Shown here piece by piece: positions 6,590-55,962 of a stretch of DNA of 64,000 nucleotides. Position numbers and translations under genes: made by a program. The stretch's first letter is position 1. The number at the start of each line of letters is the position of its first letter. Source of the stretch: Granulosicoccus antarcticus IMCC3135. GTDB lineage: Bacteria > Pseudomonadota > Gammaproteobacteria > Granulosicoccales > Granulosicoccaceae. The DNA lies in NCBI RefSeq assembly GCF_002215215.1, contig NZ_CP018632.1, positions 948,001 to 1,012,000 of the forward strand. Direction: 5' to 3'. The notes under the pieces are model-generated. The model ran no database searches. It was not told the origin of the DNA and saw only the letters and a program-made list of their open reading frames with translations.

Positions 6590-7624
6590 ATGAGAACACT
6601 GATCATCACCTCCGGCAAACGAGAGCACGGAGAGAATACGACACGGTTTCGACAATTGTGGGAGCAGGCAGAGCGCTTCTCGGCGCAAACCGCCGTGCTG
6701 GAATCAGAGCTGGACAGGCTGGCCGCACGGATCGAAGCGCATATTTTGCCGCTGGAACGTGAAGTGGGTGCACTTATTCGGCAAGTGCTGGTTCGGCAAC
6801 TGGATTTTTCAAACAGAAAAACGCTGAGGAACTGGCAACGGGTCGAGCTGGAACGCAGAATCTCGACTCTTGTGTGTGATCTGGTGCAGATGGGACTACT
6901 TGATGCAGCCTTGCATGAACGACTCTCTGTGAGACTGGCTGCGAGTCTGGGGATTGCACTGGATGAGCAAAGTGGACTGTCTGCAGCTGAGCAAATAGAC
7001 CGCTACCTGAATCATGAAATGGCTCAGTTCTACGATCCCTGCCAAGACGAATTCGAAGGCCTTCTGAACCATGAGAGTCAGAATTCTGCAGCGGGTACAA
7101 CGGGTATTACGGCGTCAACAGGAGGCGAGACTCTGGACGATTCTGTCTTCAAACGCCTGTTCCGGCAGGCTGCGGCCGCCTTGCATCCGGATAAGGAAGC
7201 AGATAGTGAGCGGCTGGCAGAGAAGCACGAGTTGATGAAGCAACTGCTCAAAGCGCGCGAGGAGCGTGACCTGATCACTCTGCTGAGCCTGCATGAGCGA
7301 TACGCCGTGGCGGATTCTGCCTTGAGTCGTGTCGATCAACAGCAGCTGGAGACCGTATTGCTTGAGCATCTGGAGAATCTGCATTGCCGACGCGATCAGA
7401 TTGTCCACAAGTCTGCGGTGCACTGCATGGCGTTCCATCAGTTTCATGACAGAGTCCCGGCAGTAGTCGATGAGCTGATTGCTGAGTACATGGAAAGGTG
7501 CGAGCACAGGAAAGCTCCCTTGCGCCGCTTTGTGAGTGAAATTCACACGTTGAAGGATTATCAATCCCTGTTGAAAGACAACCGGGATGAAGACGAGGCG
7601 GATGAGAGGTTCATGGCCAGATAG
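6590..7624 (+). CDS. J-domain-like (DnaJ-related) protein
   Basis: A 344-residue soluble protein. Residues ~182-230 resemble a J domain: a helix FKRLFRQAAAALHPDKEAD with the HPD signature at 199-201, followed by a basic helix (KHELMKQLLKAREERD). This suggests recruitment of a DnaK-type Hsp70. The flanking helical regions (1-160 and 240-344) are not recognised; the N-terminal half is rich in Leu/Glu/Arg and probably coiled coil. The start ATG is preceded directly by GAGGGG, unusually close for a ribosome site, but the only other in-frame ATGs are far downstream. It follows the PG-binding-like gene by 78 bp. Confidence 0.6.
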   Translation: MRTLIITSGKREHGENTTRFRQLWEQAERFSAQTAVLESELDRLAARIEAHILPLEREVGALIRQVLVRQLDFSNRKTLRNWQRVELERRISTLVCDLVQMGLLDAALHERLSVRLAASLGIALDEQSGLSAAEQIDRYLNHEMAQFYDPCQDEFEGLLNHESQNSAAGTTGITASTGGETLDDSVFKRLFRQAAAALHPDKEADSERLAEKHELMKQLLKAREERDLITLLSLHERYAVADSALSRVDQQQLETVLLEHLENLHCRRDQIVHKSAVHCMAFHQFHDRVPAVVDELIAEYMERCEHRKAPLRRFVSEIHTLKDYQSLLKDNRDEDEADERFMAR

Positions 7625-7853: not shown

Positions 7854-9380
7854 ATGCGTGCTTCTCCCAAACCAGACTTGCCTACTGCCGACCCCGCTAA
7901 ACTGGCGAAAGCAGACCGTGCTCCGGGCTTCGCGGCCAATGATTCGGGTAATGCACAGCCACGCGTCAAATCTGCATTGAATCGCCATATCGGTGATGCA
8001 CGTACCGCTTTACTGGCGAAACGACAGGCTGTTGTGTTGCAGGTGCTGGCTGACTTCAGCAGCGAAGAGTCGTTGGAAAATGGACTGATTGCCGCGACCA
8101 ATACCATCAAGAATCAGCTTCAATGCACACGCGTCTCATTCGGGCTGACTGTCAAGCAGCGCATCAGGGTAGTCGCCATATCGCAACAGGCTGATGTCAA
8201 CGCCTGCACGGCAGAAGCCGAGTTACTGGCGGCCGCCATGCTAGAGGCCAGTCGCCAGGACGAGATGATCAGCCTTTGTGCCTCGAACCTCGGGGATAGT
8301 CGTTTACAGGCTCATCGACTGCTGTTGGCGGGACGTCCGGAGCACCAGATTGTATCTCTAGCTGTCTGTCATGAGGGAAAGTGCCTGGCTGTCATCTGTC
8401 TCGAGAGAGAGTCGTCAATCAGCATGTCGACGCTGACACTGCAATTAATCCGCAATGTGGCGGACACACTAGCGCCTCTGATCGCCGCACGGCGTACCAG
8501 TGAGCGCTCCTTGTACAGGCATGCACGGGATAGTTTGCTGAGCAGGACCAGCACCCTGGTCGCGATTCAGCATATGAAGCTCAAACTAAGCCTGATCTCG
8601 CTACTGGCGTTGATCCTTGCCGCCTCCTTGATCCAGGTTACCTACAACATCAAGGCACCGGCTGAACTGGTGCCCCTGGAGCGAAGAATCATCTCAGCTC
8701 CACGCGATGGCTACATTCGATCGGTTGAGACCGGAGCGGGAGACAATGTCACTGCCGGGGAGGTCTTGCTGCAGCTGGATACCGGAGAGTTGCGTGTCGA
8801 GCAATCACGCTGGAACAGTGAGCTGGCTGGAACAGCGACCAAATTTCGCACAGCCATGGCCACACGAGACCGACGCGAGATGGCCATATTGGGCGCTGAG
8901 TCAAGCAGGCTCAAGGCGCAGCTACAGCTGGTGGAAACACAATTGGCCCGCTCGGCCATAAAGGCACCGGTTACCGGCGTGATAGTCAGTGGTGAGTTGT
9001 CACAGATGGTGGGGGCTCCTGTGGAAAGAGGCCAGACACTGATGGAGATCGCCCCCCCAGAAGGTTATGAGGTCTATCTGATGGTTGATGAGAAAGACAT
9101 CAACAGGATCAGTGTAGCGGACAAGGGCTACTTGTCACTGAAGGCACTATCTGGCGAACAGCTGGCGTTTTCTGTGTCGGCCATTCACCCCATCGGTATT
9201 GCCGAGGGTGGCTTCAACCGGTTTCGTGTGCAGGCAAACATTGAGCGAGGCGATGCGATTCTGTTGCCGGGACAAACAGGTGTTGGCAAGATCGATGTCG
9301 GTTCTGCCTCTGTTCTCTGGCTTATGACGCATGAATTCTCTGACTGGTTCCGGCAGAAATACTGGGAGTGGCTGGGATGA
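7854..9380 (+). CDS. HlyD-family membrane fusion protein with N-terminal GAF-like region
   Basis: A 508-residue inner-membrane adaptor. Residues 1-240 are predicted cytoplasmic, with a GAF-like region at ~60-210 (hydrophobic strands such as IVSLAVCHEGKCLAVICLE). A single membrane helix spans ~243-262. The periplasmic part has a split lipoyl domain (IISAPRDGYIRSVETGAGD... and IKAPVTGVIVSGELSQMVG), a short coiled-coil hairpin (~315-355) and a beta-barrel segment ending near the C terminus. HlyD/MFP proteins link inner-membrane machines to the outer envelope; a sensor-like cytoplasmic region on one is unusual. It is first in a unit of five genes and its stop overlaps the next start (ATGA). Confidence 0.82.
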   Translation: MRASPKPDLPTADPAKLAKADRAPGFAANDSGNAQPRVKSALNRHIGDARTALLAKRQAVVLQVLADFSSEESLENGLIAATNTIKNQLQCTRVSFGLTVKQRIRVVAISQQADVNACTAEAELLAAAMLEASRQDEMISLCASNLGDSRLQAHRLLLAGRPEHQIVSLAVCHEGKCLAVICLERESSISMSTLTLQLIRNVADTLAPLIAARRTSERSLYRHARDSLLSRTSTLVAIQHMKLKLSLISLLALILAASLIQVTYNIKAPAELVPLERRIISAPRDGYIRSVETGAGDNVTAGEVLLQLDTGELRVEQSRWNSELAGTATKFRTAMATRDRREMAILGAESSRLKAQLQLVETQLARSAIKAPVTGVIVSGELSQMVGAPVERGQTLMEIAPPEGYEVYLMVDEKDINRISVADKGYLSLKALSGEQLAFSVSAIHPIGIAEGGFNRFRVQANIERGDAILLPGQTGVGKIDVGSASVLWLMTHEFSDWFRQKYWEWLG

Positions 9381-11524
9381 GCTTTGATTCATTGTTCAGC
9401 GAACATTGGTATCGAGTCAAGAATCTAACGCCGGTGTTGGCGGATGATGTTCAGGTTAGTCGGCACGTCTATCGTTTGCAGCCGTCTTACGTGCTGCGCC
9501 GAGCTTCGACACGTAGCTGGCATCGCATCGATACATCGGGCTACGAGTTACTTGACCGCTTCAACGGTCGCCGTACGGTTCAGGAAGTCTGGGAAGCCAG
9601 TCTCGCCCAGCAAAACGATAATGCGGCGAGTCAGGCAGATCTGATCAACCTGTTGTCGCAGCTGCATGATGCAGATTTGCTGGTTGTCGATGCAAGGCTG
9701 GATACTGAGCAATTACTGGGTCGACGCGATCGCTTGCAAGGTGCCGATAAACGGCAGCGATATGGGAACCCGCTGTTTCTGCGAATGCGCCTGATGGATC
9801 CGGATAGCATTGTGAGCCGGATTGATCGGTCCATTCCGCGTCACTGTTTTCGTGCACTGGCAACAGTGACAATAGCGATCTGGCTTCTGGCCTTGTTCAT
9901 GTTAATGCCCCGCTGGGCAGAACTGGGTTTGCAGATTGCCGACAATCAATTGTTTGACCCCCTGAATATTCTGCTGGTGGGTGCAATCTATCCGGTGCTG
10001 AAACTGTTGCACGAGCTGGCGCATGCGCTGGTGGTGAAACGCTACGGTGGTGATGTACGAGAATTTGGCGTAGCCCTGCTGGTACTGGTGCCCAATCCGT
10101 ATGTGGATGCGAGTGCGGCAAGCATGTTTGCCGACAAGCATCAAAGGATGCTAGTCAGTGCCGCAGGCATACTGGTGGAAGTCACGCTAGCTGCGCTGGC
10201 AACTTTTGTCTGGCTCAATTCTACCGGGCTGATGCAGAGCGTGGCCTTGTCCGTGATGCTGATCGGCTTTGCCTCCACGCTGCTGTTCAACGGCAACCCT
10301 TTGCTCAAGTTCGATGGTTATTTTCTGTTGGCAGATTGGTTGGAGATTCCCAATCTGGCTGCTAAATCCAGGCAGTATCTGCTGGCAAATCTGGCCAGAA
10401 TGACAGGCTCCAAAGTTGCCTCGGAGGTATTGCTGGCTGATGAACGAGAAAAATACTGGCTGCTTGCCTATGGCATCTTGTCCAGTATCTACCGCATTGC
10501 CCTGATGTTCGTGATCGCCTGGGTACTATCGTCGCAGTACTTTTTCTTTGGTGGGCTGTTGGCGGTTTACGTATGCATCACATCCATGGTCCTGCCGTTA
10601 TGGAAAGCCATTGGCTTTGTCGGCAATCAGGAGGGCAAGGTACGCCAGAGAATCATGATCAGCGGAGCTCTGGTTTTCTGTCTGTTCAGCGCTGCCACCG
10701 TTGCCTTGCCGCTGCCCAAGGTGACAGTGACAGACGGCATCGTATGGCTGCCAGAGCAGGCGGTGTTGAGAGTTGTTCAGGGGTGCGAGGTGGAAACACT
10801 GCATGTCGCACCCGGTTCACTCGTCGCCATCGGTGAGCCACTTTTTGACTGCGTTGCTACTGAGTGGTCAGCCGAGGTTCGAATGCTGGAAGCCGATCTG
10901 ATCAAGATTGATGCGCAGAGAGCGGGATTGCTGATCACAGACCCTGCCAGGCATCAAAGGCTGGTGAGTGAGAGAACCTCCATACAGAGTAGTTACGAGC
11001 TGGCGCTAAATCGTTTGAGTTTGCGGCAGGTGGTGGCAGCTAGTACAGGTCAGTTTCTGGTGGAAGGTCGTACTGATCTGCAAGGGCGCTACCTGCAAGC
11101 GAACTCGGTTGCAGGTTTTGTTGTACCGCGCGATAGCCGTACCATCAGACTGGCGCTCACCCAGGCTGAAGCAAGCTGGATGGATAGGGTAGAACAGAAG
11201 ATCGAAGTGCAGTTCGATAACGGTCTGGCATCACGACAGGTATTTGCAAGCCGAATTACCCGCAAGACACCGCAGGCCAGCCAGCAGGTCGCCTCTGCTG
11301 CATTGACGACCCTGGGTGGCGGCAAGTTGCCTGCTGAGACGGGGCAAGACGATGTGATGGTCAGAGAGCCTGTCTTCGATATCGAGTTGGCATGGCCGGA
11401 TACGGCAATCGGGCAGGCCATTGGCACACGAGTGAAAGTACGGTTTGATCAAGGCTCGGCAACGTTACTCGAAAGATTCATGGTCTTTGCCAGGCACGTT
11501 CTGATCACGAGGCAAACGGCATGA
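9377..11524 (+). CDS. PqqD-like / M50 site-2 protease / lipoyl-HlyD fusion membrane protein
   Basis: A 715-residue multi-pass protein. The ATG at 9377 overlaps the previous stop (ATGA) with GGGAG upstream; a GTG at 9368 is less likely. Residues ~30-110 resemble a PqqD-like peptide-binding fold (YELLDRFNGRRTVQEVW). Residues ~160-410 are membrane helices with the metalloprotease motif HELAH (212-216) and the third-ligand motif FNGNPLLKFDGYF (304-316, Asp313), typical of M50/S2P enzymes. After a last helix (~427-446), residues 450-715 resemble HlyD lipoyl and coiled-coil segments in the periplasm. It may process or grip a substrate at the membrane. Its stop overlaps the SecA-like start. Confidence 0.85.
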   Translation: MSFDSLFSEHWYRVKNLTPVLADDVQVSRHVYRLQPSYVLRRASTRSWHRIDTSGYELLDRFNGRRTVQEVWEASLAQQNDNAASQADLINLLSQLHDADLLVVDARLDTEQLLGRRDRLQGADKRQRYGNPLFLRMRLMDPDSIVSRIDRSIPRHCFRALATVTIAIWLLALFMLMPRWAELGLQIADNQLFDPLNILLVGAIYPVLKLLHELAHALVVKRYGGDVREFGVALLVLVPNPYVDASAASMFADKHQRMLVSAAGILVEVTLAALATFVWLNSTGLMQSVALSVMLIGFASTLLFNGNPLLKFDGYFLLADWLEIPNLAAKSRQYLLANLARMTGSKVASEVLLADEREKYWLLAYGILSSIYRIALMFVIAWVLSSQYFFFGGLLAVYVCITSMVLPLWKAIGFVGNQEGKVRQRIMISGALVFCLFSAATVALPLPKVTVTDGIVWLPEQAVLRVVQGCEVETLHVAPGSLVAIGEPLFDCVATEWSAEVRMLEADLIKIDAQRAGLLITDPARHQRLVSERTSIQSSYELALNRLSLRQVVAASTGQFLVEGRTDLQGRYLQANSVAGFVVPRDSRTIRLALTQAEASWMDRVEQKIEVQFDNGLASRQVFASRITRKTPQASQQVASAALTTLGGGKLPAETGQDDVMVREPVFDIELAWPDTAIGQAIGTRVKVRFDQGSATLLERFMVFARHVLITRQTA

Positions 11525-13518
11525 GTCAGACACTCGCGGTCGCCCGGCCGGGTCTCAGGCTGGGACTTCGGCCAGAATCAACTGCATCGTTATCACAAAG
11601 TGAATTTGATGCTGTCATTGCTCGCTGGTTGAACCATCGAGTGGTGCCAGAGTTGCGTAGTCTAAGAAAGTTCAGAAAGCGCCTGCAGGCAATCGATGAG
11701 GCAGAGCGGCAGGTCGGGGGGCTGGATCTTGTGGCCCGCAATTGTGTCGTGATCTCGTTGCGTGAATCCCTTGCTGGCAAGCGACTTGAAACCAGTGATC
11801 TGGTACAGGCCTTCGCCTTGATTCGGCTTGCCATGGAGCAGAGCCTGGGCTTGAGGTTGCACGATGAGCAACTATATGCCGGCTGGTGCCTGTTGACAGG
11901 TAATTGCATTGAAATGCAGACCGGCGAGGGCAAGACTGTCACCGCAGTCTTGCCTGCTATCGTCATGGCTCTTGCTGGGGTTCCGGTGCATGTCATCACA
12001 GCGAATGAATATCTGGTGCAACGAGACTGTCGTGAGCTAAATGCCGTTTATCAATGGTTCGGCTTGAGGAGCGGTATTGTGCTGGCCGAGCAGGACGAGT
12101 CTGAACGCCGCTCTGCCTATGCCTGTGACATCGTCTATTGCACTCATCAGCAGGTCGTATTTGATTATCTCAGGGATAGTCGTGCGATGGAAAAACACCG
12201 TAGAGGCATTACTGAAAAGATTCGCAATCTGCTGGACGTTGAACCCTATACACCTCTGCTGCGTGGTCTGTGTTTTGCCATTGTTGACGAGATCGATAGC
12301 GTACTGATAGATGATGCTCGCACACCGCTCATACTGGCCGAGATCAGCAGCTCAGAGGATCTGAGCATGGCAGATGCCGCCATCGCTCTGGCTATGGCCC
12401 GAGGTCTTGAGGAGGGCCTGCACTACACTTTGAGGCATGAGTTGCGTCAGGCCCATCTTTCCAAGACGGGTTTACAAGTGATTCGTGAGCGTACGCAACA
12501 ACTATCAGGGACATGGCAGTTCGAACGATATCGTCACGAACGAATTTCTCAGGCGCTGACGGCCTTGTATTTGTACAGGCCTGATGTGGATTATCTGGTG
12601 CAGGGCGGCCGGGTAGAGTTGATTGATCAATCAACCGGCAGGCCAACACCACAGCGTCGTCTGCAGCATGGCCTGCATCGCATTCTTGAAGTGAAGGAGC
12701 GATGTAACGTGGGAGATGAATCCAATCCGGTTTCATCCTTGAGTTTTCAACGGTTCTTCACCCGTTACCACCGATTGTGTGGGATGAGTGGAACTGTGTG
12801 GGAAGCCCGTCAGGAATTGCATCGTGTGTATGGTCCACGGGTGGTGTCTGTACCCACTGCGCAAAAATCACTTCGCAAGATCATTCCGACAAGAGTTGCG
12901 GTATCACGCAAGACACAGCTTGAGCTGGTAGCCCGTCAGATCGAACAGCTGCGTAGTGCGGGTCGTTCTGTGCTGATAGGGACCAGAACCGTGCAACTGT
13001 CTGATCAGACCAGCCAGTATTTGTCGCATATCGGTATCGAGCATACGGTGCTGAACGCCCGGCAGGATACCGAGGAGGCCAGTGTGATATCGCAGGCTGG
13101 CAGAAAAGCCCAGGTAACAGTGGCCACGAACATGGCAGGTCGAGGAACTGATATCAAGCCGGATCCGGAGGTTATAGAAGCCGGCGGCCTGCATGTTATC
13201 AATCTGGAAATGAATGATTCCAGACGGATTGATCGGCAGCTGCACGGGCGTTCTGCCCGGCAGGGAGACCCTGGTTCCTGTCAAGATTTTCTCAGTCTTG
13301 ACGATGAATTGATAGTGAAGGAACTTAATCCCTTGCTCTACAGCTTGCTGAGCATATTGGTGAAGGCTTCAGGCAGTGGATCATCACTGCTGATTACAGC
13401 TCTGATCCGTTCAGCGCAAAGCAAGGTTGAGAGACGCCATCACGAGCAAAGACTGGCAGTGTCTAAAGGACAGACACGACTTCAACGTGCTCTCGCTATA
13501 GGCGGTGGCAGTGAATAG
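11521..13518 (+). CDS. SecA-like preprotein translocase ATPase (shortened paralog)
   Basis: A 665-residue SecA homolog, against ~900 for housekeeping SecA. It has Walker A MQTGEGKT (132-139), Walker B VDEIDSVLIDDARTPLI (255-271), a preprotein-binding-type insertion (DYLVQGGRVELIDQSTGR), and the NBD2 motifs ATNMAGRGTDIKP and RRIDRQLHGRSARQGDPGS. All ATPase residues look intact. The protein ends soon after KVERRHHEQRL, so most of the helical wing/scaffold region and the C-terminal zinc motif are missing. The ATG overlaps the M50 stop (ATGA). SecA motors drive polypeptides across membranes; coupling to M50 and HlyD proteins suggests a dedicated export route with unknown substrate. Confidence 0.9.
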   Translation: MSQTLAVARPGLRLGLRPESTASLSQSEFDAVIARWLNHRVVPELRSLRKFRKRLQAIDEAERQVGGLDLVARNCVVISLRESLAGKRLETSDLVQAFALIRLAMEQSLGLRLHDEQLYAGWCLLTGNCIEMQTGEGKTVTAVLPAIVMALAGVPVHVITANEYLVQRDCRELNAVYQWFGLRSGIVLAEQDESERRSAYACDIVYCTHQQVVFDYLRDSRAMEKHRRGITEKIRNLLDVEPYTPLLRGLCFAIVDEIDSVLIDDARTPLILAEISSSEDLSMADAAIALAMARGLEEGLHYTLRHELRQAHLSKTGLQVIRERTQQLSGTWQFERYRHERISQALTALYLYRPDVDYLVQGGRVELIDQSTGRPTPQRRLQHGLHRILEVKERCNVGDESNPVSSLSFQRFFTRYHRLCGMSGTVWEARQELHRVYGPRVVSVPTAQKSLRKIIPTRVAVSRKTQLELVARQIEQLRSAGRSVLIGTRTVQLSDQTSQYLSHIGIEHTVLNARQDTEEASVISQAGRKAQVTVATNMAGRGTDIKPDPEVIEAGGLHVINLEMNDSRRIDRQLHGRSARQGDPGSCQDFLSLDDELIVKELNPLLYSLLSILVKASGSGSSLLITALIRSAQSKVERRHHEQRLAVSKGQTRLQRALAIGGGSE

Positions 13519-13528
13519 CATATGGATC

Positions 13529-14407
13529 ATGAAAAAGTTAATTGATAGCTTGTCAGGGAAAAATGACTCAAGCGTCTGGGTGGCGGTAGTACTGCTGTGT
13601 GTCAGTACGGCTGTCAATGCCGAGGTGCGTATGTCTGACAGCCTTGAGGGCGATTATTCCCATGAGTGTTTGATCGAACCCAACCGGGTGCTGAAACTCG
13701 GTAGTGAAACTCAGGGGCTTGTCGATGTTCTGGAGGTGGATCGGGGAGACTACGTGAAAGCGGGTGATGTGGTCGCTCGTTTGAGATCGACTGTAGAGCG
13801 TGGTCGAGTAGAACAGGCCCGTAAACGTGCTGCCATGAAAGGCGAGATAAACGCACGCAAAGCAGATCTGGAGCTGACCAGTATTGTCTTGAAGCGCTCG
13901 GACAGACTGCACAAACAAGCATTGATTCCCTCACAGGAGCTGGATGAGGCTCGCGCACAGCATCGTGTCGCACAAGCGGCTCTGCGACAGGCTGAAGATA
14001 CTGTCGATCAACTGAAACTGGATCTGGTGCGTGCGGAGGCCTTGCTGGCACAACGAATCATCCGCAGTCCTATTGATGGTGTGGTGGTCGAGCAGCATGC
14101 CTTTGCGGGTGAATACGTTCAGGACAATCCTGTTATAACCATCGCGCAACTGAATCCGTTGCGCGTTGAAGTCGTTTTGCCGTTGAAAGAATTTGGCAGA
14201 TACGTCGTTGGTGATACGGCTGTCGTGAAACCGGAGCTGGGCGGTCCACCGGTTAATGCACGGGTGGATATTGTTGATCCATTGCTGGACGCCAGCAGTG
14301 GTACGTTCGGTATCCGGCTATTGCTGGATAATTCGAAGGGAGATCTGGTGGCCGGTCAGAAATGTGAAGTCACTATCAAAACTGAGAGCGCTGCCAGTGC
14401 AGGCTAA
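13529..14407 (+). CDS. Periplasmic adaptor (RND/MFP-type HlyD_D23 family)
   Basis: A 292-residue exported protein. I chose ATG 13529, 10 bp after the SecA-like stop, because it gives a clean signal peptide: MKKL, a hydrophobic core VWVAVVLLCVSTAV and cleavage near NA/EV; an upstream GTG at 13505 overlaps the previous gene. The mature part has a lipoyl half (GLVDVLEVDRGDYVKAGDVV), a long coiled-coil hairpin (~90-160) with RSDRLHKQALIPSQELDEA, the second lipoyl half (IIRSPIDGVVVEQHAFAGE) and a barrel. No RND pump or outer-membrane factor is adjacent, so it probably serves the upstream M50/SecA-like proteins. Short relative to typical MFPs (~370), lacking much of the membrane-proximal domain. 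Confidence 0.85.
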   Translation: MKKLIDSLSGKNDSSVWVAVVLLCVSTAVNAEVRMSDSLEGDYSHECLIEPNRVLKLGSETQGLVDVLEVDRGDYVKAGDVVARLRSTVERGRVEQARKRAAMKGEINARKADLELTSIVLKRSDRLHKQALIPSQELDEARAQHRVAQAALRQAEDTVDQLKLDLVRAEALLAQRIIRSPIDGVVVEQHAFAGEYVQDNPVITIAQLNPLRVEVVLPLKEFGRYVVGDTAVVKPELGGPPVNARVDIVDPLLDASSGTFGIRLLLDNSKGDLVAGQKCEVTIKTESAASAG

Positions 14408-14456
14408 CCCGCCACGACAGGCAGCGGTTGTCACAGGCACCAGGCCATAAATCACG

Positions 14457-17400
14457 ATGAAAATCGTAACTGCATTCAGGGCCATGATGCAACGCTCGCA
14501 AGCGGTGAAGCTAGCCTTTAGTCTGTCCATGCTGCTGTTGTGTCTGTTGTTCATGGCTGACTTGTTGACGCTACGAGGTAATCCTGCCAATGAGCGGCAG
14601 GCTGCACGCAAGGTGGTCGCAGAGTCGCTGGCCATACAGTTGTCGACACTTGTCAATATTGCCGACAAGCGCGCATTGCAGCATGCCATCAGCGAATTCG
14701 TGATGCGCAACGAGGATGTTCTTGCTGCATCGATTGCTCGATTCTCAGGTGAGAAACTGGCAGAGTATGGTGAGCTTGATAAGCTGACTTACGTTAAAAG
14801 CCGTTCTACACCAACACATATGATCGTCCCTATTCTGGAGAATAAAGCGGTCTGGGGTAATGTGCGGGTGGCCTTCAGATCAGTCGGTAACCTGGTGGAT
14901 GATCTTGTCTATTTCGGCTTTCTGGTGACAAGCGCTTTCCTGGCATTTGGTATTTTTCTCAAGCGAGTATTACTGCAGCTTGACCCCAGCAGGGCTGTAC
15001 CCGTACGCGTGAATTCGGCTTTCAATCTGTTCTCCGAAGGTGTGGTCATCCTTGATTCCAATCTGTTGATCATGCTGACGAATCAATCGGCGGCCAGAAT
15101 GCTGGACAAAGAGCCAGAAACGCAATTGGGTAAACGTATCGATGACTGGCCCTGGGTTAAGGATGAGGGTTGGCAGGCGCCGTGGGAAACCGCATTCAAC
15201 ACCGGTTTGGGTGTGTCGGAACAAAGTCTGTATCTGCAAGACAAGGGTGAACAACGACTGATCGTGGTGAGTTGCACACTCATTGGCGAAGAGGATCCGA
15301 CCCGCAGTGGTGTCATGGTAACGCTCAATGACATGAGTGCCATGCAGAAGAAAAATCGAGAGCTCTCCGTCATCAACTATCAGTTGAAGAAATCGAAGGA
15401 ATCCATCTCCGAGAAGAACCGTGAGCTGGAAACGCTGGCCTGGCGAGATCCTTTGACAGGTTTGTTGAATCGACGAAAATTTCTGGAAAATTTCCAGACT
15501 CTTCTGGAAGAGGCGTTAGAACATTCAAGACCACTGGTTTGCGTGATGCTTGATATAGATTTTTTCAAGGCGATCAATGACAACTATGGTCATGCGGCAG
15601 GTGATGAGGTTATTTGTGCGGTTGCCGCCCAGTTAAGTCTTGCCAGCCGAGAAACAGATATTGTCGGTCGCTATGGAGGTGAGGAATTCGTACTGGTCAT
15701 GCCTGATACCACGATTGAGCAGGGCCTTGAAATATCAGATCGATTGCGGCTGAGCATATTGAAGCTGAGTGAGGATGTGACGGTGCCTGTGCCTCGGGTG
15801 GCTGCGAGCCTGGGAGTTGCAGATGTGCTGCTGGAAGCAGGTCATGACAGCACAGATGCGATGCTTGATCGCGCGGACAAGGCTTTGTACGGCGCCAAGG
15901 AGTCAGGCAGAAACCGGGTTGTGGCATTTGACCCTGACACGCTGGCACTGCTGGCGGCCAACAAAGCGGCCCATGAGGATCAGCAAGTGGTGGTCTCAAA
16001 AGGACAGGCCGAAAGCAGGGCTGACCAAGCTGCGTCCGAAGTTGACGAGAAGAACAGTAGAAGCACTGGGTTGTTTGCCCAGGCACCTGAAGACTCACAC
16101 TCCCATGAAGCGGTACTGTCGGAACAGGCCGATGCTGTGAAAGCATTTGTCAGCAAGCACAATGAGGTTGTGGAGAGGCTCAAAAGCCACGACTTGCTGA
16201 CACAGCTACCACTCAGACAGCTGTTCATGCATGCGGTGGAGAATGAACTATTGCGCGCAGACAGGCTGAGTCGTACGGTAGGAATCGTGTCAATCGAGAT
16301 CAAGGAGCTGAGTCGCTTGCAGTCGAGTCTGGGGCATCAGGAAGTTGAAATAATGATCAAGGAGGTGATTGGCAAGATTCAGGAGGAGCTTCGGGCAAGC
16401 GATATGGTCACCCGTATCAATGAGGCCCACAGCATCTCTCATCTGGCAGAAAATGAATACGGCATATTACTGTCTGATCTGGCTGAATCCGAACAGGCCT
16501 TGCCTATCGTGACACGCATTCGACGTTTGTTGCTGGCTCCGATGGTTCTTAACGGCAAAACGATTTATCTTGGATTTAATATCGGAGTTGCATTATTTCC
16601 CGAGTGTGGCGACACAGCGGTTGATCTGGTGGAGGCTGCTACGCGGGCACGCATCGAGGCTGCCAAGCAACCAGAGAAAGTCTCCTATTTCTTCGCTTCG
16701 ACCGATATGGAACGACAATCAAGAGAGTATCTTCAGCTTGAATCAGACCTGTACCTGGCGGTTGAAGAGAAAAAGCTTGAAGTCTATTTTCAACCAAAAT
16801 TTGATCTGGCATCCCGTACCATCTCCAGTGTCGAGGCTTTGGTTCGTTGGAAAGATGAGACTCGTGGATTTGTGTCTCCTGTCGACTTCATCCCCATTGC
16901 TGAAACCAATGGGTTGATACGTCAGATTTTTCACCAGGTACTGGAAGCCTCATTGCAGCAGATTGTCGAATGGGATAATTTGAAGCTTGCGAAAATGAAA
17001 GTGTCGGTTAATCTTTCTGCCTCCCAATTGCGGGATCCGGAGCTGGTGTCACATGTATTGACAGCCCTTGACAATGTAGGTCTGGCGCCAGAACGACTGG
17101 AAATAGAGCTGACAGAGACATCGATCATTCAGTCACCACAGCGTGCACGCATAGCGCTGGGGCAGCTGCACGATGCAGGTGTGACCATCTCCATGGATGA
17201 TTTTGGTACGGGATATACCTCCATTGGCCTGTTGGCAGAATTGCCGTTGGATTCTGTCAAGATAGATCGCTCTTTCATCGTCGCCATGCAGACCAGTGAG
17301 CGTAGTCGCGCCATTGTCGAATCGGTGATCAACATGGCGCACACTCTCAGACTGCTGGTGGTGGCCGAAGGTGTCGAAACCAACGAGCAGCTGACAACTC

Positions 17401-17522
17401 TGGATGCATTAGGCTGTAACGAAATACAGGGCTATCTGATCAGTCGTCCATTGCCGGGGCTGGAAATTACAGAACTGTTGCGACGTGAGACCCTGAGACG
17501 TGCCAGGTCCAGGGCTGCCTGA
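14457..17522 (+). CDS. PAS-GGDEF-GGDEF-EAL cyclic-di-GMP enzyme
   Basis: A 1021-residue membrane protein. Helices at ~17-36 and ~150-170 flank a periplasmic sensor loop. A PAS-like domain (~185-300) and coiled coil precede a full diguanylate cyclase domain (330-495) with DPLTGLLNRR, LDIDFFKAIND and the active GGEEF (407-411). A second GGDEF-like domain (~575-750) carries AENEYG instead and should be inactive. The C-terminal EAL domain (~755-1010) keeps EALVRW, ELTETSI, DDFGTGYTSI and VAEGVET, so phosphodiesterase activity is likely. It could therefore make or degrade c-di-GMP. It starts 49 bp after the adaptor gene and is the last of the unit, suggesting c-di-GMP control of the export-like system. 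Confidence 0.93.
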   Translation: MKIVTAFRAMMQRSQAVKLAFSLSMLLLCLLFMADLLTLRGNPANERQAARKVVAESLAIQLSTLVNIADKRALQHAISEFVMRNEDVLAASIARFSGEKLAEYGELDKLTYVKSRSTPTHMIVPILENKAVWGNVRVAFRSVGNLVDDLVYFGFLVTSAFLAFGIFLKRVLLQLDPSRAVPVRVNSAFNLFSEGVVILDSNLLIMLTNQSAARMLDKEPETQLGKRIDDWPWVKDEGWQAPWETAFNTGLGVSEQSLYLQDKGEQRLIVVSCTLIGEEDPTRSGVMVTLNDMSAMQKKNRELSVINYQLKKSKESISEKNRELETLAWRDPLTGLLNRRKFLENFQTLLEEALEHSRPLVCVMLDIDFFKAINDNYGHAAGDEVICAVAAQLSLASRETDIVGRYGGEEFVLVMPDTTIEQGLEISDRLRLSILKLSEDVTVPVPRVAASLGVADVLLEAGHDSTDAMLDRADKALYGAKESGRNRVVAFDPDTLALLAANKAAHEDQQVVVSKGQAESRADQAASEVDEKNSRSTGLFAQAPEDSHSHEAVLSEQADAVKAFVSKHNEVVERLKSHDLLTQLPLRQLFMHAVENELLRADRLSRTVGIVSIEIKELSRLQSSLGHQEVEIMIKEVIGKIQEELRASDMVTRINEAHSISHLAENEYGILLSDLAESEQALPIVTRIRRLLLAPMVLNGKTIYLGFNIGVALFPECGDTAVDLVEAATRARIEAAKQPEKVSYFFASTDMERQSREYLQLESDLYLAVEEKKLEVYFQPKFDLASRTISSVEALVRWKDETRGFVSPVDFIPIAETNGLIRQIFHQVLEASLQQIVEWDNLKLAKMKVSVNLSASQLRDPELVSHVLTALDNVGLAPERLEIELTETSIIQSPQRARIALGQLHDAGVTISMDDFGTGYTSIGLLAELPLDSVKIDRSFIVAMQTSERSRAIVESVINMAHTLRLLVVAEGVETNEQLTTLDALGCNEIQGYLISRPLPGLEITELLRRETLRRARSRAA

Positions 17523-18779: not shown

Positions 18780-19598
18780 TCAGGGAAGCGCGGGCATACT
18801 GGGGCTGGCTGGCGAGTAGGTGGGAACACAGACCGTGTGGCCACTCTGGGTCTGTTCGACGCTCACCGGCGTACCGTAGGCCAGACTAAGCTTGTCGGCT
18901 GTGAGCGCTTGTTGCGGTCGGCCTTGGCCTATCACTGATTGAGCGTGCATCAGCAGCACATCGGCATTGAGGGTGAAGGCTTGATCCGGATTGTGGGTAG
19001 AGAGAATAATGCCGCGATTGGCTGATGCCATGGTGCGAGTCAATGCGGCTATCTGGCGCATCACGATCGCCTCGTTACCAAAATCGAGGCTGGCAGTCGG
19101 TTCATCCATGATGATGAAAGGTGTTTCCTGAGCCAGGGCACGAGCGATTAAAATCAGCTGCCTTTGTCCACCTGATAGTTGTGAATAGTCCTGATTTGCC
19201 AGTGAGGATATACCCAGTTGTGACAAGGCATTGTCCACCGCCAGATAGTCCTGCTTGCCGGGTTGGCCAAACAGGGGAAGGTGTGCTGCCCGCGCCATCA
19301 TGACAACCTCCGCCGTGGTGTAGGGAAATGGTGGTGCATGTTGTTGCGGAACATAGGCGATCTGACGGGCAAGCCGGGTACGGCTCAGTTCGCAGATCGA
19401 TGTGCCGTTCAGAATGATGTCACCATCCACAGGGGGAAGCAGACCCAGAATAGTCTTGAACAACGTAGTTTTTCCACAACCATTCGGGCCCAGCAAACAG
19501 AGAATCTGTCCTGAAGATAGATTGAAATCTATGCCCCGACACAAGGATAGGCCGCCATGGCCGATGCTCAGCTGATGCGTACGCAGGCTCAGTTCCAC
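18780..19598 (-). CDS. ABC transporter ATP-binding protein (FecE/BtuD type)
   Basis: A 272-residue ATPase subunit of a type II importer. Walker A LGPNGCGKTTLF (~34-45), signature LSGGQRQLILIARAL, Walker B FIIMDEPTASLDFG and the H-loop STHNPDQAF are all present. The first 10 nt overlap the end of the permease gene, so the two are translationally coupled. It powers uptake of the ligand captured by the FecB-type binding protein. Confidence 0.94.
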   Translation of the reverse strand: MELSLRTHQLSIGHGGLSLCRGIDFNLSSGQILCLLGPNGCGKTTLFKTILGLLPPVDGDIILNGTSICELSRTRLARQIAYVPQQHAPPFPYTTAEVVMMARAAHLPLFGQPGKQDYLAVDNALSQLGISSLANQDYSQLSGGQRQLILIARALAQETPFIIMDEPTASLDFGNEAIVMRQIAALTRTMASANRGIILSTHNPDQAFTLNADVLLMHAQSVIGQGRPQQALTADKLSLAYGTPVSVEQTQSGHTVCVPTYSPASPSMPALP

Positions 19599-40044: not shown

Positions 40045-43000
40045 ATGCCCGTGCACCCCAAGACCCGGATGCTATCGACTCTACGTCGAACCGCAGTAGT
40101 GTCCCTCTCTGTCGGCCTTTCCGTTGTTCTGCACCCTGGCGATGTAAAAGCCGAGGGTGTTTTTCAGATGGGGCTTGGTCAGGCCTTGCTCGAATACGAC
40201 ACTGTCAAGCAGTTTGGTTATGCGACTGATGACGCTTCCGCATCGATGTATGTGGATATTTTGACCATAGGGGAGGTCATCAACGTGTCGCTGTGCGGTA
40301 CGCAGAATAGCGATGATATAGAGATTGAAATTTATGCGCCGTCCGATGACGCCACTCCGATAGACACGCAGAGCAGTAGTACCAGCAACGTTAATTGTGG
40401 CGATCCGATGACGGCTCCATTGACTAATCCCTTTCGTTACCAGGCGCAGGAGACAGGCGCATATCGGCTGGTGTTGAAGAACAATTCGCAAACCGGAGCA
40501 GCGGGTCGATTTCTACGTTACGACTTCACTGTCACTCCAGATGTATTGACAGACCCTGATCCTACGGCTACTGATGGCCGATTCTGGAGCTATACATTCG
40601 GCTTCAATGCCAACGGTTTCTCCGAAACGCAGTCGACAGATGCTAATTACTTTGCATTGATTCCTGGTGGACGCCCAAGCACCAATTATGTCTGGATGCT
40701 GGATTTGAATAACTTCGCCGGTTTCTATTACAACCTGGTGGCGAACTCCCTGGGACTTGATGATCCGAACTCGGGCTACAGTGACGACACCACCGGTAAT
40801 TCAGTGAGCTATGAATTTCCGATGTATGTCAGCTATCCGGTTGTGGCCGACCCACTGCCGACAGCGCCGCCGACTGTTACGAATGTGCGTTTTACTGATG
40901 ATTCTGGACAGGATCACGCGATATCACCTGCGGGTGCTGATGGTTTGCAGGATAGTGGCAAGTTCGTGTTTGAAACTGATGTCACCGGCACCTACTCGAT
41001 TCTGATCGATTTGAATCAGAACGAAATTTACGGCGACGCCGGTGATAGACAACTGCTCGGTTTGGTCACACCCGGGACAAATGAGGTGGTGTGGGATGGT
41101 ACTGATGCAAGTGGTAATACACCTTCAGAGGGAACCTATTACGCTGAAGTTCAGGTTCATATGGGTGAATACCACTTTATTGCCAATGATGCAGAGACCA
41201 GTGGTGGCGGTACTGCTAATGGTTTGAGTATTTTTCAGGCGAAGAATGACGGCACCGTGTCCGATACTACTGTCTTCTGGGACGATGTTACGTTGTTGGG
41301 AGCAGGCGCTGGTGGAACAAGCAATACGCCATCGGGTGTTTCATCAGGCACACCAGCAGGCCAGCACACCTGGGGTGATTTTACAGGTACTAGCTTTGGT
41401 AACAATCGATATATCGACACCTATGTTTTTGGTCTGGCTACCACCGGCTACGCACCCTCTGTCATCGCCAGTGATAACACTGAACAAGTCAACTACGATG
41501 GTACCGTCACTGCTGACAACATCAGCGTACCGGGCGATTCAATCTCGATTACCGTGTCAGACACAGATCTGAATGCAGACAGCGGTGTTGCTGAAACGGT
41601 TAAAGTGGAAGTGCTCAACGACATCACCGGTGAAACTGAAACAGTTACCCTGACAGAAACCGGGCCGAACACCGGTGTACTGACTGGCACCATGTCGACT
41701 GTCGCAGGCACCACAGCAGGTAGCGATAACGACGGTACTCTCGTAACCGATGGTACTGACACGCTAACAGTGACCTACTGGGATCTGATTGCGGCAGACC
41801 ATACTTCAAAAGAGCGTACCGTCGCACACACGGTTCTGGTTGACACCGACAGAGATGGTATCGCTGATATAGACGATCTGGACGATGACGGCGATGGCAT
41901 CATCGATGTACTGGAAGGCGCTGGTGACAGCGACGGTGACGGCATCAGTGACTCACTGGATACCGACTCAGACAATGATGGCATTCTCGACGCCAACGAA
42001 GATAGTACCAGTCCTGTATTGCTTAATGCGGATGCGGATGGTGATGGCATTGACGATGCGGTCGATGTTGATATTACCAATGGGGATGATGATGACGGTA
42101 ATGGCGTTGATGACGCTTTTGAGCCGACCGATAGTGACGGTGATGGCATAGCGGATCACCTTGATGGTGACAGTGATGCGGATGGTATCCCCGATATCAT
42201 CGAAGGTTCTGTTGATTCTGATGGCGATACGATTCCCGATTATCTGGACCTGGATTCAGATGCGGACGGCATTGACGATGCGGTGGAGGACACCCGGACG
42301 CCAGCCTTGCTGGGAACCGATGCCGACAATGATGGTATCGATGATGCGATCGATGTTGATGTGACGAATGGTACAGATGCCGACGCTAACGGCATTGATG
42401 ACGCACTGGAGCCCAGCGATACCGATGGTGATGGGGCTAACGATTTTCGGGATGTTGATTCTGATAATGACGGTATTCCCGATACGCTTGAAGGGAATGT
42501 GGACAGTGACGGAGATGGCACACCAGATTTTCTGGATACCGACTCGGACAACGATGGCATCCTTGATAGTGTGGAAGCCTCCAATGTTCCCGCTCTGACC
42601 AATAACGATGCAGACAACGATGGAATCGATGATGCGTTCGATGTCGATCTGACCAGTGGTGACGATGACAATGCCAATGGTATAGACGATGCTCTGGAGC
42701 CGATTGATTCAGATGGAGACGGCACGGCTGATTATCTGGATATCGACAGTGATGCTGATGGCATTGCCGATGTTTATGAAGGTTCAGTTGATAGTGACGG
42801 CGATAATATTGCCGACTACCTGGATACCGATTCGGACAACGACGGTATTCTTGATGCAGCTGAAGACAGTAATACCCCTGTATTACTAGGTTCGGATGCC
42901 GATAATGACGGCATTGACGATGCGCTTGATTTTGACTTGATAGGCGGCAACGATGCTGATGGCAACGGCATCAGTGATGCGGTAGAGCCTCAGGACAGTG

Positions 43001-46000
43001 ATGCCGATGGCACGCCGGATCATCTGGATATCGATAGTGATGCCGATGGTATTGCCGACATTCTGGAAACCGCAATCGATTCTGATGGTGACGGTCAACC
43101 GGACTATCTGGACCTGGACAGTGATAACGATACGATTGTCGATTCTATTGAAGACAGCACCAGTCCAACCTTGCTCGGTACCGATGCCGACAATGACGGG
43201 ATTGATGATGCGATCGATGTCGATGTGACAAGTGGTGACGATGATAATTTCAATGGTATAGACGATGCACTGGAGCCAAGCGACTCGGATGGTGACGGTA
43301 TTGCCAACCACCTGGATAATGACAGTGATGCGGATGGCATTGCAGACGTACTGGAGCTGGCAACAGACACCGACGGTGACGGTGATCCGGATTATCTGGA
43401 TCTGGATTCAGACAATGACGGCATTCTTGACGATGCGGAAGATACGACAAGTCCTGTCCTGTTGGGAACCGATGCGGACAACGATGGAATCGATGATGCG
43501 CTTGATGTAACAATTAGCGGTGGCGCAGATGTCAACAACAATGGCGTTGATGATACGTTCGAGCCGACGGATAGTGATGCCGATGGCACACCGGACCATC
43601 ACGATCAGGACAGTGATGCGGATGGTATCCCCGACATCATCGAAGGCTCTGCCGATTCTGATGGCGACACTATTCCAGACTATCTGGATCTGGACTCGGA
43701 TGCGGATGGTATTGACGATGCGGTCGAGGACACACGGACGCCAGCCTTGCTGGGAACCGATGCCGACAATGACGGTATCGATGATGCGATCGATGTTGAC
43801 GTAACCAATGGTACAGATGCTGATAATAATGGCATTGATGACGCGTTGGAGCCCAGCGATACCGATGGTGATGGGGCTAACGATTTTCGGGATGTTGATT
43901 CGGATAATGATGGTATTCCCGATACGCTTGAAGGGAATGTGGACAGTGACGGTGATGGCACACCAGATTTTCTGGATACCGACTCGGACAACGATGGCAT
44001 CCTTGATAGTGTGGAAGCCTCCAATGTTCCCGCTCTGACCAATAACGATGCAGACAACGATGGAATCGATGATGCGTTCGATGTCGATCTGACCAGTGGT
44101 GACGATGACAATGCCAATGGTATAGACGATGCTCTGGAGCCGATTGATTCAGATGGAGACGGCACGGCTGATTATCTGGATATCGACAGTGATGCTGATG
44201 GCATTGCCGATGTTTATGAAGGTTCAGTTGATAGTGACGGCGATAATATTGCCGACTACCTGGATACCGATTCGGACAACGACGGTATTCTTGATGCAGC
44301 TGAAGACAGTAATACCCCTGTATTACTAGGTTCGGATTCCGATAATGACGGCATTGACGATGCGCTTGATTTTGACTTGATAGGCGGCAACGATGCTGAT
44401 GGCAACGGCATCAGTGATGCGGTAGAGCCTCAGGACAGTGATGCCGATGGTACGCCGGATCATCTGGATATCGATAGTGATGCCGATGGTATTGCCGACA
44501 TTATTGAAACGGCCACCGATTCGGATGGCGACGGTCAACCGGATTATCTGGACCTGGACAGTGACAACGATACGATTGTCGATTCTATTGAAGACAGCAC
44601 CAGTCCAACCTTGCTCGGTACCGATGCTGACAATGACGGGATTGATGATGCGATCGATGTAGATGTGACAGGTGGTGACGATGATAATTTCAATGGTATA
44701 GACGATGCGCTGGAGCCAAGCGACACGGATGGTGACGGTATTGCCAACCATCTGGATATCGACAGTGATGCGGATGGCATTGCAGACGTACTGGAGCTGG
44801 CAACAGATACAGACGGCGATGGCGAGGCAGATTTTCTGGATCTGGATTCAGACAATGACGGCATTCTTGACGATGCGGAAGATACGACAAGTCCTGTCCT
44901 GCTGGGAACCGATGCGGACAACGATGGAATCGATGATGCGCTTGATGTAACAATCAGCGGTGGCGATGATGCCAACAGTAATGGCGTGGATGACGCATTT
45001 GAGCCGACTGATAGTGATGGTGACACTATTCCTGATCATCGTGATCAGGACAGTGATGCGGATGGTATCCCCGATATCATCGAAGGCTCTGCCGATTCTG
45101 ATGGCGACACTATCCCGGACTATCTGGATCTGGACTCCGATGCGGACGGTATTGACGACGCGGTCGAGGACACACGGACGCCAGTCTTGCTGGGAACCGA
45201 TGCTGACAATGACGGTATCGACGATGCGATTGATGTCGATGTAACTAATGGTACCGATGCTGATAATAACGGCATTGATGACGCACTGGAGCCCACTGAT
45301 ACAGATGGCGACGGCACCCATGACTATCGGGATGCGGATTCTGACAACGACGGTATTCCAGATCATATTGAGGGTAATGGTGATACCGACGGCGATGGCA
45401 CAGCAGACTTTTTGGATACCGACTCGGACAACGATGGCATCCTTGATAGTGTTGAAGCTTCCAATATGCCGGCACTGGCCAATAGCGATTCGGATAATGA
45501 TGGAATCGACGATGCGTTCGATGTCGATCTGACCAGTGGTGACGATGACAATGCCAATGGTATAGACGATGCTCTGGAGCCGATTGATTCCGATGGTGAC
45601 GGCACGGCTGATTACCTGGATATCGACAGTGATGCTGATGGCATTGCCGATGTTTATGAAGGGTCAGTAGATAGCGATGGCGATACCATTGCTGACTACC
45701 TGGATACCGACTCGGACAACGACGGTATTCTTGATGCCGCTGAAGACAGCAATACGCCTGTATTACTCGGTACGGATGCCGATAATGACGGCATTGATGA
45801 TGCGCTGGATGTTGATCTGACAGGTGGCAGTGATCTTGATGGCAACGGCATTGATGATGCGGTAGAGCCACAGGACAGTGATGCTGATGGCACGCCGGAT
45901 CATCTGGATATCGACAGTGATGCCGATGGTATTGCCGACATTATTGAAACGGCCACCGATTCGGATGGCGACGGTCAACCGGATTATCTGGACCTGGACA

Positions 46001-55000: not shown

Positions 55001-55962
55001 AGGTAGATGGGGTTGGTACCAGTGACGGGATTCAAACCGGTTATCAATTGTTCCTCGGCTACGATATCAACAAGTGGCTTTCACTGGAAGTTCATGGTGC
55101 TGACCTGGGTTCTGCCGAGTTGTCACCGAGTGGTTCCATTAGCTACAGGACCTTCGGTGGCAGTGCATTGTTCTATGTCGGTGGTAATCGTGATCGTCAG
55201 AAGAGACGTGGCTTGAGCGGATTTGGACGCCTTGGTTATGGGTATCTGAGCAACCATAGAGATAGCGCATCGGTTAATTATGAGAAAGATAACGCCAATC
55301 ACTTTCTGTACGGCCTGGGAGTTGAGTACATGGGCCGCCGCGGATTGGGAATACGGCTCGAGGGGAACTATATTGATGCGGATATCCGTTATAGCCAGCT
55401 AAGCCTCTTGTACCGGTTTGGTACCAACTCTGATGCTGAAAAGATTCGTCAAGTAGATCAGATGCCTGTGGCGGTAGCTGTCACGGCCCCCATCTCGGCA
55501 TTGCCGGTTTTGAATGATAACGACAACGATGGAGTCAGTGATGATCAGGACAATTGCAAGCTGACAGGGGTAGAGGTCGCCGTTGATGAATTCGGATGTG
55601 GAATATTTGGTGGGATTATTGAAAATGTACACTTCTCGACAAATTCTGCATTGCTCTCGAGCCTGGCCAGGGGGCAGCTGGATGATGTCGTTGCTACGCT
55701 CAAAACCTTTCCGGGTACACAGCTTATTCTCTCGGCGCACACAGATAGCCGAGGGGCTGGTGAATACAATCAGAACCTGTCTGATCAGCGTGTTGTTTCT
55801 GTAGAACAGTATCTGCAAAAAGCAGGCGTTTCGCTGAGTCGTTTGAGACTGCGTCACTATGGTGAAACTCAGCCAGTTGAGAGCAATGCCACGACTGAAG
55901 GGCGACGTATGAACCGGAGAGTCGAACTTGCAGTTTGTCCCGATGGTTGCAAGATCAAATAG
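40045..55962 (+). CDS. Giant TSP3-repeat / OmpA-family surface protein (5305 residues)
   Basis: Residues 1-36 are a Sec signal peptide ([20 protein letters not shown]). Residues ~37-598 are beta-rich, including PPC-like and Ig-like segments. Residues ~599-4865 consist of acidic thrombospondin-type-3-like repeats of the DSDGDGIPD kind, expected to bind Ca2+ and form a long stiff stalk. GGGCS (Cys4881), [16 protein letters not shown] and RRHRG (4877-4910) resemble a C-terminal sorting signal but are internal. They are followed at once by a second signal-peptide-like segment (~4911-4938, ending SNAIAA/EN). Residues ~4950-5145 look like an OmpA-type beta-barrel ([14 protein letters not shown] ... 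LSLLYRFG). A short TSP3 unit precedes the OmpA peptidoglycan-binding domain (~5190-5300: [18 protein letters not shown]). The architecture suggests a fusion of a sorted stalk protein and an OmpA protein. Likely adhesin or surface filament; not proven. Confidence 0.9.
42181..46740 (+). repeat. 1440-nt tandem super-repeat (480 residues), ~3.2 copies
   Basis: Units start at 42181, 43621, 45061 and (partial) 46501 at exactly 1440-nt steps. Each contains five 96-residue modules (288 nt). Copies are very close: 42541-42893 equals 43981-44333 base for base, and 44521-44716 equals 45961-46156. A more diverged partial unit precedes 42181. Recent duplication or gene conversion is likely, and length variation between strains is expected. 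Confidence 0.9.
49010..53400 (+). repeat. 2406-nt tandem super-repeat (about 802 residues), two diverged copies
   Basis: Segments near 49048-51453 recur at +2406 nt; checked anchors include 49080/51486, 49440/51846 and 50460/52866. A two-codon deletion shifts the second copy near 53150. DNA identity is visibly lower than in the 1440-nt array, so this duplication is older. Confidence 0.8.

Follow-up and report, generated by a model that had tools for sequence, protein, structure and literature searches.

The described systems closest to the locus treated here are type I secretion, in its HlyB-HlyD-TolC form or as LapBCE for giant adhesins; the accessory Sec pathway (SecA2/SecY2), with an extra SecA-family ATPase linked to large surface proteins; and the PqqD-M50 proteases found in clusters for ribosomally synthesized and post-translationally modified peptides (RiPPs), such as daptide and YydH/LiaK. 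PqqD-like domains bind leader peptides in RiPP systems. We analyzed a five-gene operon at positions 7854 to 17522 of a 64,000-nucleotide stretch (the window) of the Granulosicoccus antarcticus IMCC3135 genome, which is a single contig of 7.78 Mb (NZ_CP018632.1; hereafter, G000). We consider it likely that this operon encodes a dedicated envelope-spanning exporter of giant surface proteins that bear the LEPR-XLL signature and usually a DUF4347 domain, acting here in trans. In size, LEPR-XLL/DUF4347 proteins rank among the largest bacterial proteins; in our phylum search, LEPR-XLL open frames reached 19,427 aa.

Genes of the window operon

Based on the list of open reading frames (ORFs), all five genes are on the + strand, in the following order:

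7854..9380, + strand: GAF-HlyD adaptor, 508 aa, with a GAF-like domain, one membrane segment (aa 245-263) and a barrel-sandwich HlyD part
9377..11524, + strand (ATG at 9377; longest frame from 9368): PqqD-M50-HlyD membrane protein, with a PqqD-like N-terminus, an M50 core and a C-terminal HlyD part
Within 9377..11524, + strand: M50 core motifs read from the sequence, HELAH at aa 215-219 and NGNPLLKFDG
11521..13518, + strand: truncated SecA-like ATPase, 665 aa, with NBD1, PPXD, NBD2 and the beginning of the scaffold helix, lacking the helical wing, the two-helix finger and the C-tail
13529..14407, + strand (likely ATG at 13529; longest frame from 13505): second HlyD adaptor (HlyD2), with a Sec-type hydrophobic N-terminus
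14457..17522, + strand: PAS-GGDEF-GGDEF-EAL protein, 1021 aa, assigned from domains and sequence

The initial annotation, made from the sequence alone, had described 4-nt ATGA overlaps and a 10-bp gap, and the junction letters bear this out: ATGA overlaps join GAF-HlyD to M50 and M50 to the SecA-like gene, 10 bp separate the SecA-like stop from the likely HlyD2 ATG, and 49 bp lie between HlyD2 and the GGDEF/EAL frame. Judged from this arrangement, the operon of five adjoining genes is real, and a single transcript is predicted; promoter and terminator scans of the operon returned matches at chance level only.

The families that had been named (HlyD, M50 with an HlyD segment, SecA-like and an adjoining cyclic di-GMP (c-di-GMP) enzyme) were recovered with Pfam: HlyD_3 (1.9e-17) and HlyD_D23 in the GAF-HlyD protein; M50 (3.3e-6; 27.0 bits, slightly below the cut-off of 27.2) and HlyD_3 (6.4e-7) in the M50 protein; SecA_DEAD (4e-81) and SecA_PP_bind (6e-18) in the SecA-like protein; HlyD_D23 (8e-17) in HlyD2; and two GGDEF stretches plus EAL in the fifth protein. 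The GAF and PqqD labels are weak in the window proteins (19.2 bits against a cut-off of 22.4, and 2e-4 with 22.1 bits against 23.4, respectively), yet both recur in relatives: at E up to 0.05, GAF was matched in 12 of 17 aligned GAF-HlyD proteins and PqqD, weakly, in 8 of 17 aligned M50 proteins, 16 of which matched M50. We infer the sides of the membrane on which the parts of the GAF-HlyD adaptor lie. Three features had not been noticed initially: the truncation of the SecA-like protein, the recurrence of the cluster elsewhere in the genome next to giant LEPR-XLL proteins, and the presence of outer-membrane channels in some related clusters.

Association with giant LEPR-XLL proteins

SecA_DEAD matched five places in G000: the housekeeping SecA, the window gene, two paralogues (loci L008 and L009) and one partial match. 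Both paralogues show the same four-gene order, and in each a giant gene comes directly after it:

L008:1090-8571: giant of 2493 aa
L009, open to the locus edge: giant of at least 2701 aa

DUF4347, pentaxin, laminin-G-like and cadherin-like domains were found in both giants, whose LEPR-XLL signatures span residues 15-34 and 16-37 (19.2 and 19.3 bits, respectively; cut-off 17). In total, G000 holds seven M50-HlyD genes, four of them in M50/GAF-HlyD pairs without a SecA-like gene, and seven DUF4347 giants (nine domain matches in seven frames). Six giants score above the LEPR-XLL cut-off, and the seventh (L064) begins LEARIMLDGA. Five adjoin a system, either with a SecA-like gene (L008 and L009) or without one (L060, L061 and L064); the other two stand alone (L062 and L063, near 2.85 and 3.0 Mb). 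The seventh M50 gene (L223) is located near response-regulator and signalling genes, with no giant. This GAF-HlyD/M50-HlyD pair (L223:6922-15997; G000:C1, about 292-301 kb) has as neighbours a GGDEF/EAL regulator and a PAS-hybrid histidine kinase that contains Hpt, and similar loci (L224-L226) occur in genomes G012, G020 and G008. The partial match (PF07517, at 7.53 Mb) was rejected as a further system, since no system gene surrounds it.

Co-occurrence was counted in a class sample of 274 genomes (LEPR-XLL, E up to 0.01; M50-HlyD, E up to 1e-40; SecA-like threshold set by us) and in a phylum sample of 398 genomes (LEPR-XLL, E up to 0.001; M50, E up to 1e-60). In the phylum sample, where LEPR-XLL was found in 41 genomes and M50 in 89, M50-HlyD was present in 40 of the 41 LEPR-XLL genomes versus 49 of the 357 others (p=7e-29); the sole exception, G494, is 86% complete. 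By genus, M50 was present in 24/24 LEPR-XLL genera versus 22/189 others (p=2e-19), a count that lessens phylogenetic dependence and does not remove it; all statistics given here are uncorrected for genome size.

The class sample yielded LEPR-XLL in 23 genomes, M50-HlyD in 37 and the truncated SecA-like gene in 17 (606-995 bits, frames of 647-837 aa); the next best match, below the threshold, scored 571 bits in a frame of 899 aa. M50 is present in all 17 SecA-like genomes and LEPR-XLL in 13 of them, compared with 10 of the 257 others (p=4e-13). M50 was present in 19 of the 23 LEPR-XLL genomes; among the other four, two have motif frames of 99 and 168 aa that may be chance matches, G099 has its motif on a 3-kb contig, and G236 is considered below. 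Additionally, among 24 same-genus genomes, M50 was found in 22 and DUF4347 in 23. A contig scan with one SecA-like query returned nothing beyond a SecA of ordinary length (L001, 976 aa) and HlyD2 and SecA-like fragments at the edge of a contig (L002). The most widely shared part is M50-HlyD, usually with GAF-HlyD.

M50-HlyD and LEPR-XLL genes are often neighbours as well. Of the 53 LEPR-XLL places outside G000, 27 are on a contig that also has a listed M50 gene, and for 20 the distance is within 10 kb. These counts are lower bounds, as the six places in G000 were excluded and no more than two M50 candidates per genome were scored. We jointly examined 47 M50 loci, chosen for holding M50, many of them from one genus and several ending at contig edges. 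A motif-bearing frame was located beside or within the cluster in 20 of these loci, with the strict motif in 15 and a looser one in five (L060, L068, L069, L107 and L128); in some loci, the body of the giant adjoins the cluster and its start lies beyond the locus end (e.g., G130 and G263). As a rough control, we took the 386 non-system ORFs of 200 aa or more in the 47 loci, and the strict motif occurred in none of those below 700 aa; the giants form part of this set and were not counted as background. Distant M50 relatives adjoin proteins with related starts, i.e., LEPRMMFDGA (L202), LEERVVLDAA (L208) and LEQRVVLDAA (L209). The c-di-GMP genes also recur as neighbours, either as GGDEF or GGDEF/EAL genes or as a response-regulator GGDEF/EAL gene accompanied by a hybrid kinase.

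Several of these results bear on the initial annotation. The gene order is kept in related genomes, on which it had made its reading depend, and the large secreted proteins that it expected as recurrent neighbours were found in the form of giant LEPR-XLL/DUF4347 proteins. Its statement that the unit holds neither an outer-membrane channel nor an ABC pump is right for the window operon, but OEP/TolC-type proteins are located within six other clusters (L116, L117, L119, L131, L203 and L208). Based on these observations, we regard it as quite probable that the cluster exports LEPR-XLL proteins, a transport function that we infer from association.

The loci examined also contain other gene arrangements. 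SapC-family proteins (PF07277) lie beside the export cluster in two other genomes (L110:13896-14675 and L113:18597-19316). In L210:5110-13830, a divergent, shorter SecA-like gene (571 aa) occurs with M50, GAF-HlyD and HlyD2 beside a tyrosinase-domain protein, and no giant was seen within that stretch. A single frame at L219:13125-16160, upstream of a LEPR-XLL giant, combines a phosphotransferase (APH), an M23 peptidase and a class III aminotransferase. At L200:8552-12920, an M50-HlyD gene is directly beside a histidine kinase/receiver/guanylate-cyclase-domain protein, a signalling partner, with no giant.

Proposed mechanism and alternative explanations

We listed 32 motif-bearing N-termini, orphan giants included, with the starts of the annotated frames. 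The leader motif of the giants, LExLExRxLLxSA, is located 12-31 residues from the start in 24 of the 32, and the residues preceding it have a net positive charge in 27. The 12-residue hydropathy maximum ranges from 0.8 to 2.1 and exceeds 2 in 1/32 cargo N-termini versus 11/14 HlyD2 controls, some of whose frames begin upstream of the likely ATG; on this hydropathy check, which is not a signal-peptide prediction, the cargo tag is unlike a Sec signal.

In 17 aligned M50 sequences, H215, E216, H219, N308, N310, P311 and D316 are invariant, so that the HExxH and N/P/D residues of the M50 (site-2) protease motifs are all present. The averaged hydropathy of the M50 protein gives seven or eight segments, and we take aa 233-255 to be the strand region that follows HExxH, as in site-2 proteases. 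With these residues as a strand, the seven-segment reading is N-in/C-out: the positive loops lie inside, and the C-terminal HlyD part averages a net charge of -4.3; the PqqD-like domain and the active site would thus be cytoplasmic and the HlyD part outside. With eight segments, PqqD would be outside, and the leader-reading model given below would fail.

A profile of 14 SecA-like sequences aligns only to residue 608 of the B. subtilis SecA chain 3jv2 and reaches residue 612 of the C. difficile SecA2 chain 6t4h. The C. difficile SecA2 report (PMC7503281) places the scaffold (HSD) helix at 578-625, the helical wing domain at 626-705 and the two-helix finger at 706-781. Both alignments end inside the scaffold helix; hence, the helical wing and the two-helix finger are absent. 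The two nucleotide-binding domains and PPXD are present, and across the 14 sequences the residues of GEGKT, DE-x-DS and motif VI show no variation or almost none. In a quick tree with SH-aLRT (Shimodaira-Hasegawa-like approximate likelihood ratio test) support, in which L210 and L120 were flagged as long branches, 29 SecA-like proteins fall on one side of a branch versus 5 housekeeping SecAs, with support of 100. According to PMC6599042, the two-helix finger sits in the SecY funnel, and PPXD and the scaffold domain also touch SecY; since the SecA-like proteins keep these two wholly or partly, they could still bind SecY. That the SecA-like protein acts as a motor is, in our estimate, an evenly balanced proposition.

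With the seven-segment reading of the M50 protein, the following mechanism can be proposed. In the cytoplasm, the PqqD-like domain of the M50 protein would recognize the short leader with the LExLExRxLLxSA motif, the M50 core would hold or trim this leader, and the truncated SecA-like ATPase, where present, would clamp and feed the unfolded chain. The three HlyD parts would connect the inner membrane with a TolC-type channel; the gene for this channel is part of the cluster in some genomes and, in G000, presumably lies elsewhere. The c-di-GMP enzymes beside the cluster would set production or activity. Leader cleavage by M50 is possible, though we would not presume it, and c-di-GMP control, suggested by the recurrent neighbourhood, is put forward with the same reserve. 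Still more tentatively, the system might represent an unnamed secretion class, in which a LEPR-XLL leader is held by PqqD-M50-HlyD and the protein is driven into a HlyD-TolC conduit by a SecA descendant stripped of two SecY-contacting parts; this would be a one-step export with no ABC transporter and perhaps no SecYEG.

Another explanation, which we consider unlikely, is that the housekeeping SecA-SecYEG moves the giant, that the M50 and HlyD proteins process, hold or pass on the chain, and that the SecA-like protein is a helper or unfoldase. It would fit the 12/41 LEPR-XLL genomes of the phylum sample in which the truncated SecA-like gene is missing, the absence from the SecA-like protein of the helical wing and two-helix finger as SecY-contacting parts, and the retention of the M50 catalytic residues; however, the low hydropathy of the cargo N-termini relative to the HlyD2 controls and the presence of M50 in all 17 SecA-like class genomes do not favour it.

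Regarding the window copy itself, its relatives in G012 (L065) and G019 (L066) contain all five genes, with 58-70% protein identity to those of the window and the GGDEF/EAL gene in the same place (69-70%), and they have no adjacent giant. G000, G012 and G019 have in common two unlinked LEPR-XLL giants in conserved synteny. L062 corresponds to L214/L216 by flanks that are 76-94% identical, the N-terminal part of the giant being ~41% identical to L216. The counterparts of L063 are L215/L217; here, flank identity is 56-93%, and the giants show 42-43% identity across some 1190 residues. Antisense frames were not counted. In G012, the window-type operon is the only one with a SecA-like gene, and the one other M50 gene is of the L224 type; the three DUF4347 giants of this genome are all near contig ends, and none was seen adjoining a system in their partly covered surroundings. 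In G020, a giant is located between HlyD2 and the GGDEF gene, and in the orthologous G008 operon, that gene, which encodes a PAS-GGDEF protein without EAL, comes directly after HlyD2, with a giant 82% identical to that of G020 (3002 aligned positions) on another contig. As far as these sequences tell, this pair is a precedent for the relocation of cargo away from the operon. The SecA-like tree places L008 and L067 as the sister group (99) of the window clade (100); since a giant adjoins each of these two, loss of adjacency in the window clade is the simpler history. We lean towards the window copy acting in trans on unlinked giants.

It is improbable that the window copy is a relict, or a c-di-GMP signalling unit left after the loss of its giant. 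The lack of an adjacent giant in the window, G012 and G019, with GGDEF/EAL in that place, and the occurrence at L223 of an M50 pair beside a hybrid kinase and a GGDEF/EAL regulator would agree with it, but the five frames are intact in the three genomes at the identities given above, with catalytic motifs kept, and the two unlinked giants are conserved in the same genomes. Very improbable is a RiPP-like unit in which PqqD-M50 removes the leader of a small peptide, as in daptide/epipeptide systems: the M50 protein matches NF041824 (daptide HExxH; 8e-43, 146.9 bits against a cut-off of 300) and NF058609 (LiaK/YydH; 3.5e-11, 43.3 bits against 225), both below the cut-offs, but its recurrent partners are giant proteins, M50 tracks LEPR-XLL, and no RiPP-modifying enzyme was noticed, with no search aimed at such enzymes or at frames below 60 aa.

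Several observations weigh against a dedicated exporter of LEPR-XLL giants. The window copy and both of its orthologues lack an adjacent cargo gene, and since G000 contains seven each of M50 systems and giants, the partner of the window copy is ambiguous. M50/GAF-HlyD genes at L223-L226, outside the 47 loci, are accompanied by signalling genes and no motif protein, and no motif protein was seen beside other distant M50 genes. A real counter-example comes from the class sample, in which G236 has a LEPR-XLL frame of 7373 aa but lacks an M50 match; in the phylum sample, 49/89 M50 genomes have no LEPR-XLL match. The PqqD assignment is weak by sequence (8/17). Finally, the truncated SecA-like gene was found in only 29/41 LEPR-XLL phylum genomes, two of them doubtful (G572, with one stop in its 516-aa frame, and G450, with a 1370-aa frame), and in 17/37 M50-bearing class genomes; thus, it is not an obligatory motor for the whole family, and another motor must serve in the 12 LEPR-XLL genomes without it. 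The specialised secretion route of the initial annotation therefore stands as a dedicated export unit, well supported by conservation, and is weakened by the absence of a cargo gene next to the window copy and by a SecA-like gene that is not universal.

Two further genes of the window should be mentioned. Upstream of the operon, 6590-7624 on the + strand encodes a 344-aa protein with no Pfam match at E 0.01 and an HPD motif, presumably of the J-domain type; in L065 and L066, its relatives (38-41%) precede the related operons, with other ORFs between. Downstream, a 5305-aa protein (40045-55962, + strand) was set aside as cargo because its N-terminus looks, by eye, like an ordinary signal peptide, no LEPR-XLL motif was seen there, and the gene is located 22.5 kb beyond the end of the GGDEF/EAL gene. 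Besides TSP3-like DxDxDG repeats, this ORF encodes a sorting-tail-like stretch, GGGCSIS...LRR, towards its end (aa 4878, nt 54676); after it come a second hydrophobic segment and a C-terminus that is OmpA-like, which gives the impression of two exported proteins joined in a single frame; the labels TSP3, sorting tail and OmpA-like are our assumption.

Comparison with known systems

Each part of the system belongs to a known family, and the cargo domain is already named by NCBI: the likely cargo family is that of the LEPR-XLL/DUF4347 giants (NF012209 and PF14252, curated by NCBI and Pfam). In the literature searched, with preprints and most subscription journals outside its coverage, we found no description of the gene set or of its pairing with LEPR-XLL and no export route for these giants. 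Their near-complete dependence on a definable gene set opens the export question to a direct deletion experiment. If a truncated SecA does drive transport without the two-helix finger, the system would test current models of how SecA moves polypeptides.

The PqqD-M50 proteases of RiPP clusters share the PqqD-like plus M50 architecture and differ in the fused HlyD part, the giant protein partners and the scores, which are far under the family cut-offs. In LapD-type c-di-GMP receptors, both GGDEF and EAL are degenerate; the window GGDEF/EAL protein, as read from its sequence, has GGEEF in the first GGDEF domain, a degenerate second GGDEF and an intact EAL motif.

As in SecA, the SecA-like protein comprises NBD1, PPXD and NBD2, with invariant GEGKT and motif VI residues; unlike SecA, its similarity ends at the scaffold helix, and it forms a separate clade. 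The accessory Sec pathway likewise links an extra SecA-family ATPase to large surface proteins, but the present system is Gram-negative, and its SecA-like protein has no helical wing or two-helix finger. No SecY2 was noticed in the neighbourhoods read, no search aimed at SecY having been made. According to PMC7503281, C. difficile SecA2 keeps both the helical wing and the two-helix finger, and other SecA2 proteins have a shortened helical wing; loss of the helical wing alone is thus not unique.

Type I secretion is resembled in the HlyD/MFP-type adaptors, which are present; in the TolC-type channel, absent from the window operon and found as OEP in the six clusters mentioned above; in the very large repeat proteins as likely cargo; and in the nearby c-di-GMP genes. 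With Pfam, no ABC transporter was found in the window operon, the genomes not having been searched for a distant partner. Using a home-made ABC profile, ABC-like frames were detected within 8 kb of M50 in 8/51 loci, including that of the window (18780-19598, - strand). Such a frame directly follows M50 only in L208 and L209, both with ABC_tran_Xtn and C-terminal domains, which we take to indicate soluble ABC-F proteins; in L009, a 613-aa ABC-like protein is 3.7 kb away on the opposite strand. Thus, unlike in type I secretion, the operon has no ABC transporter, the inner-membrane part is an M50-HlyD fusion, and the conserved tag is N-terminal. Because the ABC transporter of type I secretion and the helical wing and two-helix finger of SecA were looked for and found to be lacking, we rate this kind of system, assembled from HlyD, M50 and SecA relatives, as new.

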